64,000 nt of DNA. Source: Psychrobacter luti (GTDB lineage Bacteria > Pseudomonadota > Gammaproteobacteria > Pseudomonadales > Moraxellaceae). The position numbers and the translations under genes were made by a program. Below, in pieces: positions 2,259 to 22,906 of this stretch. The stretch is from assembly GCF_014192115.1 (NCBI RefSeq), contig NZ_JACHXL010000003.1, positions 186,001 to 250,000 on the forward strand, written 5' to 3'. The notes beneath the pieces are model-generated. The model saw only the letters and a list, made by a program, of their open reading frames with translations, was not told the origin of the DNA and did no database searches. Numbering within the stretch: the first letter of the stretch is position 1; every line of letters begins with the position of its first letter.

Positions 2259-3056
2259 ATGACTCAAACTGTCAATGACGTCGCTGACTTGATGAGTGAT
2301 AAGACCCGTCGCCCGACATCTAGTTTTCAAGTACCGACTACGGTCAGATATTTCTTTACGGTACTGGTGTTGGGTTTGCTTGTGCTGATATTAATCATGG
2401 GTGGTAAGGCACTACGCGACGCACCGCCTGCTGCTATTCATGTAGATAATCGAGATTTGACATTTGCGCAGTATCAAGCGTTACAGCATGTCATGAGCCA
2501 ACAGAGTGTCAGTAGTTTTTTTACCTCTGATTTGCAAGCGCTAAGAGATATTACTACCAGTTTGGCTTGGGTTGACCAAGTAAGCGTGAGCCGTGATTGG
2601 CAGCGCGGTATCGTCATTAAAGCCTTACCAAAACAGGCGGTGGCGAATTTCGGCACTGAGCGTTTGGTTGATGCAAAAGGGGCGGTTTTTGTCCCTGCTG
2701 ATAGTCGAGATTTAACACAAGAGCGTTTTGCGACGTTACAAGGTGACATGGCGCAAGCGCCTGTTATTATGCAGCAAATGCAGCAAGTCAATGATTGGTA
2801 TGCACCGCTTGGTATGCAAGTTGAAGATATTATCTTGTCACCAAGAATGACCTGGCTAATTCGCTTTGATAATGGTCAACGTGTCATCGTTGATAATGAA
2901 AACACTGCGCAAAAATTGTTGAATTTAAGTCAGCTACTTGGCAATCAATTAAGTAACCGCCGCGATGAAATACAGTCTGTCGATCTTCGTTACAAAAATG
3001 GATTTACAATCGCATGGAATCTCGCACCGCCAAAAACTATTGAAACACCACCGTAA
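2259..3056 (+). CDS. ftsQ: Cell division protein FtsQ
   Basis: Bitopic divisome protein that links FtsB/FtsL to the septal synthase complex. The 265-residue product has a cytoplasmic N-terminus of about 27 residues, one membrane segment at about 28-50 (FTVLVLGLLVLILIMGG), then a periplasmic POTRA-like region (IHVDNRDLTF onward) and the FtsQ beta domain, which includes VNDWYAPLGMQVEDIILSPR. The ATG at 2259 follows an AGGGACGAAG ribosome-binding site. Size and position between ddl and ftsA fit the family. Sequence conservation in FtsQ is normally low, so the call rests on topology plus synteny. Confidence 0.92.
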   Translation: MTQTVNDVADLMSDKTRRPTSSFQVPTTVRYFFTVLVLGLLVLILIMGGKALRDAPPAAIHVDNRDLTFAQYQALQHVMSQQSVSSFFTSDLQALRDITTSLAWVDQVSVSRDWQRGIVIKALPKQAVANFGTERLVDAKGAVFVPADSRDLTQERFATLQGDMAQAPVIMQQMQQVNDWYAPLGMQVEDIILSPRMTWLIRFDNGQRVIVDNENTAQKLLNLSQLLGNQLSNRRDEIQSVDLRYKNGFTIAWNLAPPKTIETPP

Positions 3057-3067
3057 ATGAATAAAAC

Positions 3068-3111
3068 ATTAAGGAAGCAGTCAAAACCTTATATTTGTCT
3101 GCTTTCTTAAT
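3068..3111 (+). promoter_or_regulatory. Hairpin between ftsQ and ftsA
   Basis: ATTAAGGAAGCAG (3068-3080) faces CTGCTTTCTTAAT (3099-3111): 13-bp arms with a single G-U wobble in RNA and an 18-base loop, starting 12 bases after the ftsQ stop. No T-run follows the right arm, so it does not look like a standard terminator. Processing, mRNA-stability or attenuation roles are possible. Confidence 0.55.
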
Positions 3112-19912: not shown

Positions 19913-20971
19913 CTACTGTACAGGTTCAGAAGCCAGCTCTTCATTGGCTTCGTTAATATCTGTGGCTTTAGCGGTCTTTTTCGACCCAAGCTTTTCCTCA
20001 CGGATTTTGGCTTCGATTTCCTGTGCAATCGCAGGGTTTTCTTTTAAGAACAGCACAGAATTGGCTTTACCTTGACCGATTTTTTCATCGCCATAGCTAT
20101 ACCAAGAGCCAGCTTTGCCCACTGCACCAATCTCAACACCCAAGTCAATCACTTCTGCTAAATGGTTGGTACCTTCGCCATAAGTAATTTCAAATTCAGC
20201 CTGACGGAAAGGTGGTGCCATCTTGTTTTTGATGACTTTAACACGGGTTTGGTTACCGATGATTTCATCACCGTTTTTAACCGCACCGATACGGCGGATA
20301 TCCATACGTACCGAGGCGTAGAACTTAAGCGCGTTACCACCAGTTGTGGTCTCAGGGCTACCGAACATCACACCAATTTTCATACGAATTTGGTTAATAA
20401 ACACCACCATACAATTTGAGCGTTTGGCGTTACCGGTAATTTTACGTAGCGCTTGGCTCATTAGACGTGCTTGCAGACCCATGTGTGAGTCGCCCATCTC
20501 GCCTTCAATCTCCGCGCGCGGCGTCAACGCAGCCACGGAATCAATGACAATCATATCAACCGCCCCAGAACGCACTAGCATGTCGGTGATTTCAAGCGCT
20601 TGCTCACCATTATCAGGCTGAGAGAGCAGTAGGTCATCAGTATTGACGCCAAGCTTGCGCGCATAAACTGGATCTAGTGCATGCTCAGCATCGATGAAGG
20701 CGCAGACACCGCCTTGCTTTTGGCATTCTGCAATTGCTTGCAAGGTCATGGTAGTTTTACCCGAGCTTTCTGGACCGTAAATCTCAACGATACGGCCTTT
20801 TGGTAAACCGCCAATGCCAAGCGCAATATCTAGACCCAATGAGCCTGTTGATACTACATCTACGTCCATAATGGCTGAGTCATCGCCTAGGTGCATGATG
20901 GTATTTTTACCAAACTGCTTTTCGATTTGACCAAGGGCTGCTTTGAGGGCTTTGGCTTTATTTTCGTCCAT
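19913..20971 (-). CDS. recA: Recombinase RecA
   Basis: DNA-dependent ATPase for strand exchange and the SOS coprotease. The 352 residues include Walker [13 protein letters not shown] (about 66), Walker [11 protein letters not shown] (about 140), the L1/L2 DNA-binding loops ([20 protein letters not shown] and [20 protein letters not shown]) and the C-terminal acidic tail. It is followed by recX 40 bases on. Upstream is a 1.06-kb non-coding region with an inverted repeat (21124-21144) and DnaA boxes. No E. coli-type LexA box with both CTGT and ACAG at the right spacing was found. Confidence 0.98.
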
Positions 20972-21144: not shown

Positions 21145-21457
21145 CTACTATACAGTAAAATTCAATAATGAGAAAAGCAAAAAAAAGTTCATAAATTTTG
21201 CTAGTAAGTAAGCATGATAATAGCAGTGAGCTCAGTTAACACGTGATTTTCACATATTTTTTAAGCTAATCTGTTTTATATCACTGTTGATTAGATAAGG
21301 CAATTATAACAAAATCCAAGGCCAATATTGAGGGTGCTAAGAGGCTAAACGACAGTGAGTGTCGTATGATGTTCTATTCGAATATTTATAAAACAGGCTT
21401 ATTTTAACTTTCAGTTTCGAACTTGATGATAGGGTCATTTGTCAATATATTTATGAG

Positions 21458-21686
21458 TTGTCCACAATAAAAAAGGTGTTTTTATTGAGTGCTTGTGAAA
21501 CATCCATAACGGTTAAATTTATTTTAAAAATTTTAAAAATATATTACTTTGCTTTCAAATTTTGTCTAAGTAGTTGATTTTAAATGTTTTAAAAATTGTA
21601 CAAAAAATGAACGATTTTACCTAACCCTTTAAGCTGCCTAGGGAAATACTTGTCAAGTGGCGACTTATACACAGGGTTATCCACAG
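21458..21686 (+). promoter_or_regulatory. DnaA-box cluster beside an AT-rich tract
   Basis: TTATACACA (21665-21673) and TTATCCACA (21678-21686) both match the DnaA-box consensus TTATNCACA exactly, in the same orientation with starts 13 bases apart. TTGTCCACA at 21458-21466 differs by one base. Between them, 21510-21610 is almost entirely A and T, with runs of T4A5-type steps. This resembles the layout of an origin or of a DnaA-titration/reactivation site. It lies in the 1.06-kb gene-free gap (20972-22033) between recA and trmB, not next to dnaA. Confidence 0.5.
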
Positions 21687-21960
21687 CTTATGGGGAGAAC
21701 TCACGAAGCCCTTATGCTATCAATGTTTGCGCAGATATGAAATATTGCATGCAAGCCAAATATAGGCTATTTCTGTTTTTGCAACTTTAAATTTAGTCAT
21801 AAAATTGCTGTCTAATGCCTATGTTTCACATATTGCTAGCGGGTATCTAGTGGATATAGAGCACGCATTTAAAGGCTTTAACGATTTAAAAGTAGCTAGC
21901 ACAACGCGCGACGCCTTATATATCAACAGATAAAGTAGGGCAGGAGAGATATTCAGCCAC

Positions 21961-22033: not shown

Positions 22034-22906
22034 TTAGTCTTTGATATAGATTAAATCCCAAACACCATGTCCGCGCTCTAAACCGCGGCGCTCAAACTTG
22101 GTCATTGGACGAAAGTCAGGACGGTCGGTGAAATTACCGGCGCCTGCTTGATTGGTCAGCCCTACAAAACCATCCAACACTTCAACCATCCAAAAGGCAT
22201 AATGCTCCCAGTCAGTCGCCGTATGGAACCAGCCGCCTTGCTTTAAGCTGCGCGTGACAATCGCCATGCGCTCAGGACTGACAAATCGGCGTTTATAATG
22301 GCGCTTTTTTTGCCATGGGTCAGGGAAGTAAAGCTGGATACGATCAATATGGTTTTCTGGTAGCTGTTTCAGCAATTGAATAGCATCACCGTTAATGATT
22401 TTAACGTTGGTTAAACCTTGCGTACCTGCCATATAAGCGCATTTACCGATACCTGGCTCATGGACTTCGACACCAACGAAATTGCGCGTCGGCTCAGCAG
22501 CGGCCATCTCGATAAATGAATCACCCAAGCCAAAACCAATCTCTACCGTAAGGGGCGCGTCACTGCCGTTAAGGCTATCTGCGAATAACGCGCGCAAATC
22601 GTTAATGCCATCAAGATTGCCATCACCAAAACTGTTATTGGCTAAATAATGCGCAAACTCTGGCGCAGTCAGTGCCAGTTCGGCATTTTTATTCATATGC
22701 GTACGGCGTTTCATAAAGGTATTAACGATACGAATATGTTTGTCCGTTACATGCTCATTCTGGCTGCTAGTATCGGCATCCATGCTAGTTACAGTATCAG
22801 TTATAGCGTGAGTTTCAGGGTTCATAGGGTTAAGGCTATTAGGGTTTTGCTCATCAGTAGTATTAGCACCATTGATGTTGTCATTGATATCAGGATGTTG
22901 ACTCAT
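22034..22906 (-). CDS. trmB: tRNA (guanine-N7)-methyltransferase
   Basis: Makes m7G46 in tRNA. The SAM motif [15 protein letters not shown] (about residue 121), [15 protein letters not shown], and the signature [18 protein letters not shown] (about 193) are all present, with the C-terminal [17 protein letters not shown]. The first 60 residues are Asn/Thr/Asp-rich and have no counterpart in typical members of about 240 residues. An internal Met at about residue 66 (MKRRTHMNK) could be the real start. Followed by its own terminator. Confidence 0.94.

Follow-up and report, generated by a model that had tools for sequence, protein, structure and literature searches.

A probable DARS-type DnaA-reactivating element between recA and trmB in Psychrobacter

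What do the DnaA boxes behind recA of Psychrobacter luti do? We addressed this question in a stretch of 64,000 nucleotides (hereafter, the window; G000:C3:186001-250000) from a 2.97-Mb draft genome (17 contigs). Within it, recA (19913..20971, minus strand) and trmB (22034..22906, minus strand), both named in the original prediction and by their own sequence, enclose a gap of 1,062 bp. As predicted, this gap holds no gene: among open reading frames of at least 40 aa, the longest lying wholly inside it has 47 aa. An origin, a titration or reactivation site, control of recA by DnaA, and chance had all been offered as explanations for the boxes.

DnaA boxes in the recA-trmB gap and their conservation

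Two exact same-strand DnaA boxes are indeed present, both on the plus strand: TTATACACA (21665..21673), here called box III, and TTATCCACA (21677..21685), box II. The first starts where it had been placed, whereas the second starts at 21677 rather than 21678, which makes the spacing from start to start 12 and not 13 bases. The predicted near-match, TTGTCCACA, was found at 21458..21466 (plus strand), 207 bp before box III; we refer to it as the distal box. The tract at 21510-21610 had been described as almost pure A/T; it is rich in A+T (84%, 85/101) but not almost pure. Its richest 50 bp (21514..21563) reach 92% A+T, and the sequence of this spacer is weakly conserved.

The number of DnaA boxes in the window is ordinary (4 observed versus 3.65 expected); none of 200 dinucleotide shuffles of the window gave a same-strand pair within 40 bp. 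Across the genome, TTATNCACA occurs 113 times (63+50), versus 68 times (25+43) for the reversed pattern. The genome-wide clustering check proposed with the prediction returned, among the roughly 100 places listed, three groups with boxes no more than 60 bp apart: one beside dnaA (C2:68245-68479), one in the ribD-ribE gap (C2:61277-61545), and the recA-side pair.

Chance, which had been allowed for as the origin of the boxes, is excluded because the element that contains them is conserved across the genus. By blastn, a 421-bp query matches 103/105 Psychrobacter genomes and all 97 of those of good quality, the two misses being 77% and 83% complete. When 76 elements, each from a different genome, are aligned, they delimit a conserved non-coding element of about 300 bp (21438..21740, ends approximate), within which identity is high and beyond which the flanks decay, mostly to 30-60% per column. 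The pattern TTATACACAGGGTTATCCACA, with up to 2 mismatches, is found in 90/105 genomes of the genus.

Individual sites were scored in a second alignment (A1) of 55 elements chosen for diversity, including five second copies. All members pass a strict filter for the tandem pair, so the conservation of boxes II and III in A1 results from our choice of elements, while box I and the Fis and IHF sites played no part in that choice. The same filter kept two loci out of both alignments: L103, whose contig ends inside the element, and L113, whose second box is TTATACACA.

The original prediction saw the boxes but missed the conservation of the element and three of its parts. The first is a degenerate third DnaA box (box I, TTCTCCCCA, 2 mismatches; 21691..21699, minus strand), opposed to box II across a 5-bp gap and read as TGNGGANAA in 50/55 aligned elements. 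The second is a Fis-binding consensus, GNNYANNNNNTRNNC, at 21598..21612 (sequence GTACAAAAAATGAAC); it is complete in 51/55 elements, its outer G and C are invariant (55/55), and its variable bases are C or T (25/30) at Y and G or A (38/17) at R. The third is an IHF-binding consensus, TAANNNNTTGATW, at 21567..21579 on the plus strand (sequence TAAGTAGTTGATT), which is present in 48/55 elements when scored with Y as its first base (YAANNNNTTGATW). Both consensuses are used as given in PMC8682772. A Fis homologue was found in 13/13 genomes tested, including that of P. luti. The distal box lies mostly 206-209 bp from box III.

Within the element, conservation tracks the positions of the protein-binding consensuses. 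It is noteworthy that one of the best conserved words in the 76-element alignment, TTGTGAAACAT (21493..21503), contains a DnaA-box-like word on the minus strand (TGTTTCACA, 21494-21502, 2 mismatches).

A DARS-type core and competing explanations

Read as its reverse complement, the segment 21665-21699 is TTCTCCCCA-5-TGTGGATAA-3-TGTGTATAA, that is, box I, 5 bp, box II, 3 bp, and box III. This 9-5-9-3-9 core is identical in geometry to those in the E. coli K-12 gaps of DARS1 (TTATCCACT-5 bp-TGTGGATAA-3 bp-TGTGTATTA) and DARS2 (TTATTCACC-5-TGTGGATAG-3-TGTGAAGAA); with up to 3 mismatches, the pattern occurs at one site in the P. luti genome, and its reversed control at none. We take DARS2 to be the rppH-mutH gap and DARS1 the bioD-uvrB gap, an assignment supported by the equal geometry that both gaps hold. 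In the pertinent passages of PMC5742627, box I is opposed to boxes II and III, with equal spacing in DARS1 and DARS2. The Psychrobacter site likewise has three boxes with box I opposed to the other two, spaced by 5 and 3 bp, and it is non-coding and outside oriC.

Counted from the start of box III, the Fis site starts at 67 bp and the IHF site at 98 bp, and the distal box follows in most genomes. As consensus words, IHF and Fis sites are thus on the box III side, as in DARS2. The DARS2 order core-IHF-Fis was not found, since in Psychrobacter Fis lies between core and IHF, and the flanking genes are recA and trmB rather than mutH and rppH. Because the Fis-IHF order differs, we file the element as a DARS-type site and not as DARS2 itself. 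Judged by these features of its sequence, the element is very probably a DARS-type DnaA-reactivating sequence, and our best reading is a putative DARS variant in which Fis separates core from IHF. The predicted reactivation site fits, on account of the DARS1/DARS2 box geometry; the origin and the control of recA are not supported.

By analogy with E. coli DARS2, ADP-DnaA would bind the core, and a head-to-head pair of DnaA molecules on boxes I and II would loosen the ADP. Bending by IHF, together with Fis, would time the onset of this loosening, and DnaA freed of its ADP could then take up ATP and raise initiation competence at oriC.

The alternative that survives best, although we consider it unlikely, is a datA-like site, at which same-direction boxes around an IHF site gather ATP-DnaA and hydrolyse the ATP, or titrate DnaA. 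The distal box, the IHF site, and boxes III and II are so arranged, with the boxes in the same direction, and a profile model of the element (R1, described below) gives E. coli datA 13.3 bits. However, the DARS1 core and the DARS2 gap outscore datA with this model, and the distal box is missing in 11/84 evaluable genomes although the tandem pair is kept. Moreover, a box I that is opposed across a constant 5 bp is characteristic of DARS, whereas the essential datA boxes all run in the same direction according to PMC5742627, which also names the datA gap.

As a datA candidate, the ribD-ribE cluster is preferable to the recA-side element. This cluster (G000:C2:61277-61545; L069:5278-5546), which lies outside the window and 7 kb from the dnaA-side cluster, has five exact DnaA boxes, four of them in the same direction, with an exact IHF consensus between boxes (L069:5393). 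A 432-bp query taken from it matches 96/105 genomes of the genus, often partially, and the exact IHF word between the boxes is present in 4/12 loci read, including that of P. luti. We regard the cluster as a candidate datA-like or titration site.

Neighbourhood invites a further explanation, namely, that DnaA controls recA transcription through the element. We read the flanks in 85 of the 103 matching genomes, two of which could not be judged for recA, their contig ending too soon. The element has recA within about 1.5 kb in 73/83 evaluable Psychrobacter genomes, and trmB in 83/85. Yet recA is beyond that distance in the remaining 10/83, box III and the recA start are 694 bp apart, and RecA adjoins none of 20 loci in the family's other genera (TrmB, 1/20). 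The element has no fixed link to recA, and we find control of recA very improbable.

Other neighbours vary as well. Closer reading of three loci (L077, L083, and L086) places the element between an RlmH-like gene and trmB; in genomes G077 and G078, neither RecA nor TrmB is nearby. Many of the 20 loci from other genera adjoin a TtcA-like gene (named by eye), and in the one with TrmB (L187, genome G190) the element is flanked by TrmB on one side and a GroEL-like gene on the other, so the trmB side of this arrangement may be ancient. Five genomes (G037, G038, G039, G044, and G046) have the element twice, with the second copy (L076, L078, L080, L084, and L087) adjoining sugar-kinase-like and phosphoglycerate-mutase-like genes (names by eye). 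In these second copies, the distal box is missing from its usual place.

A secondary replication origin, which the proximity of DnaA boxes to an IHF site and an A/T-rich tract might suggest, is harder still to defend. As the original prediction expected for oriC, an oriC-type box cluster adjoins dnaA, on another contig. The recA-side element is not beside dnaA in Psychrobacter, lying 504-922 kb from it in 18 genomes, and its A/T tract is weakly conserved. In addition, R1 finds no match in the E. coli oriC stretch at E values up to 10 and gives at most 7.6 bits at the dnaA-side cluster of P. luti (11.5 bits at the ribD-ribE cluster).

Finally, a small RNA or short protein gene, to which the strong conservation and a 46-aa frame at 21650-21790 might point, is scarcely credible, since conservation tracks protein-binding consensus positions, Rfam gives two matches only, both well short of the threshold (21.1 bits against a gathering score of 38, and 16.4 against 50), and the frame is open for at least 46 codons in only 11/55 elements, on which ground the protein gene was rejected.

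Distribution of the element among Gamma- and Betaproteobacteria

To describe the range of the DARS-type element, we used a search by boxes only, with three boxes and a free gap of 0-14 between boxes II and I. Across the class, all 20 matches have a gap of 5 (reversed control, 0); they come from 17/369 genomes, so this strict pattern misses most class genomes. A scan of named genomes listed 80 loci of at least 120 stretches. Among the matches listed, and with groups assigned by us from genome record labels, the gap is 5 in 33/34 gamma/beta loci (12 of the 34 being Moraxellaceae) versus 3/49 others. Two of these three exceptions are in L244 and one is in L307, all metagenome bins.

Among the matches listed, 22 gamma/beta sites outside Moraxellaceae were picked on their boxes alone. 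An IHF word with at most one mismatch is present in 15/22, versus 2.23 in mononucleotide shuffles, and in 14 of these 15 it starts 97-100 bp from the box III start. The exact Fis word is present in 11/22, versus 0.73 in shuffles, and always starts at 64-66 bp. Seven of the sites have no IHF word and 11 have no exact Fis word. On the opposite side of the core, IHF was found in 0/21 gamma/beta sites and Fis in 1/21. The 48 sites listed from other taxa gave 5 IHF and 3 Fis words (2.83 and 1.83 in shuffles), as well as 10 IHF-like matches on the opposite side of the core. One site was excluded from these counts, its upstream sequence being missing.

The profile model R1 was built from Psychrobacter elements only. 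With E values that are rough, it matches 244/249 genomes and 16/16 genera of Moraxellaceae (E ≤0.01), 110/115 genomes and 79/83 genera in a sample of the order (E ≤0.001), and 118/143 genomes in a sample of the class, often twice per genome. As a control, box trios of other phyla, among the matches listed, reach up to 28.1 bits, mostly over the core part alone; this ceiling leaves aside the metagenome bins L244, L307, and L258, and most of the trios have other gaps. Class and order matches below about 28 bits may thus be mere box trios. By a count of the printed rows, 83/143 class genomes have a match of at least 30 bits, above the level of these trios, and the best match per locus scores 32.0-55.5 bits in the 22 gamma/beta loci among the matches listed. 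In 20 family, 18 order, and 18 class loci, which are among the best, the top match of each extends from the IHF site (model 3-10) as far as the box I end (140 or later); 2, 8, and 3 alignments, respectively, were viewed. Box I has one mismatch to the consensus in the eight order-level loci viewed and none in L225 and L226.

Some matches lie outside these groups. The three bins L244, L307, and L258, labelled Alphaproteobacteria, Aquificaceae, and Oligoflexia, score 35-42 bits, which may reflect wrong binning or true spread. In the single-contig class genomes G406, G416, G452, G454, G478, G494, and G504, the listed matches are at least 93 kb from dnaA; dnaA was located in 20 class genomes, and the match G497:3171050 was left unplaced. 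In G006 (C1:2018836-2020288), dnaA is in two pieces, one of them read through stop codons, which may be an assembly error or a broken gene.

We lean towards a broader view, in which DARS would be an ancient control element of gamma- and betaproteobacteria, often with a rigid order of core, Fis, and IHF (a 35-bp core, a Fis start at about 66 bp, and an IHF start at about 98 bp); the order in E. coli DARS2 would be a derived rearrangement, and the recharging of DnaA with ATP would be old. Replication timing by DnaA recharging may then predate E. coli and its relatives and be more widespread. With a DARS recognisable in Psychrobacter, other Moraxellaceae, and betaproteobacteria such as Nitrosomonas, the age and generality of DnaA recharging become open to direct test in laboratory strains; the element also supplies a motif with which such sites can be predicted and raises the question of how the Fis-IHF order matters. 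The passages that we cite report DARS sites from E. coli and its close kin (PMC4245941, PMC8682772, and PMC5010248); the species list of PMC8682772 ends with Vibrio and Shewanella, and the review PMC4451416 places DARS in "a number of Gammaproteobacteria," citing Fujimitsu 2009. Among the open-access papers listed, titles and abstract openings yielded no report of DARS in Psychrobacter, Acinetobacter, or Pseudomonas.

Comparison with DARS1, DARS2, and datA of E. coli

The E. coli systems offer a direct comparison. R1 was run on 350 kb of E. coli K-12 comprising DARS1, DARS2, datA, oriC, and three other stretches; as these were chosen by hand, the test is not a whole-genome one. The DARS1 core ranks first (24.3 bits), followed by two matches in the DARS2 gap, one about 300 bp beyond the core (17.5 bits) and one at the core itself (16.3 bits), and then by an AT-rich stretch (13.8 bits) and datA. 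These scores are modest, and the second-ranked match is off the core. A core-only score such as that of DARS1 is not specific by itself, because trios of other phyla reach 28.1 bits. The likeness to DARS is one of geometry and profile and not of plain alignment, since blastn of the element against E. coli genomes gave no match at E values up to 10.

The DARS2 gap holds two core-like stretches 320-380 bp apart (L143:2614-2760 and 2937-3081). Similar pairs are seen in two other class genomes, at G604:C209:4937 and 5317 and at G527:C4:288324 and 288679. A second core may survive as a remnant within DARS2.

With contigs taken as closed, the element lies at 0.355-0.557 of the replichore from dnaA in 18 Psychrobacter genomes (median, 0.389), with 15 below 0.45 and three at 0.55-0.56; it is on one arm in 14 genomes and on the other in 4. 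Four relatives in the family have it at 0.546-0.594. In E. coli, DARS2 is at 0.412, DARS1 at 0.659, and datA at 0.201. This position is in part just conserved gene order. According to PMC5010248, E. coli DARS2 is functional at an equal distance on the opposite arm.

Of the three E. coli systems, datA is, like the element, non-coding DNA with DnaA boxes and an IHF site, but its essential boxes are unidirectional in the account taken from PMC5742627, whereas Psychrobacter box I is opposed. DARS1 shares the core geometry and is the best R1 match in the E. coli DNA searched; R1 covers its core part only (model 103-152), and the Psychrobacter element adds IHF and Fis sites. DARS2 resembles the element in its core geometry, in the IHF-like and Fis words on the box III side with further DnaA boxes beyond, and in its place at about 0.4 of the replichore from the origin; its core match takes in both the IHF-like word and the core (model 5-157). 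It differs in its neighbours and in box I, which is degenerate in Psychrobacter. The IHF-like word of DARS2, with one mismatch, starts 87 bp from box III, versus 98 bp in Psychrobacter, and its Fis word (L143:2781-2795) lies beyond the IHF-like word. The E. coli order is thus core-IHF-Fis, in line with the IHF sites placed between core and FBS2-3 in the relevant portion of PMC4245941, whereas that of Psychrobacter is core-Fis-IHF.
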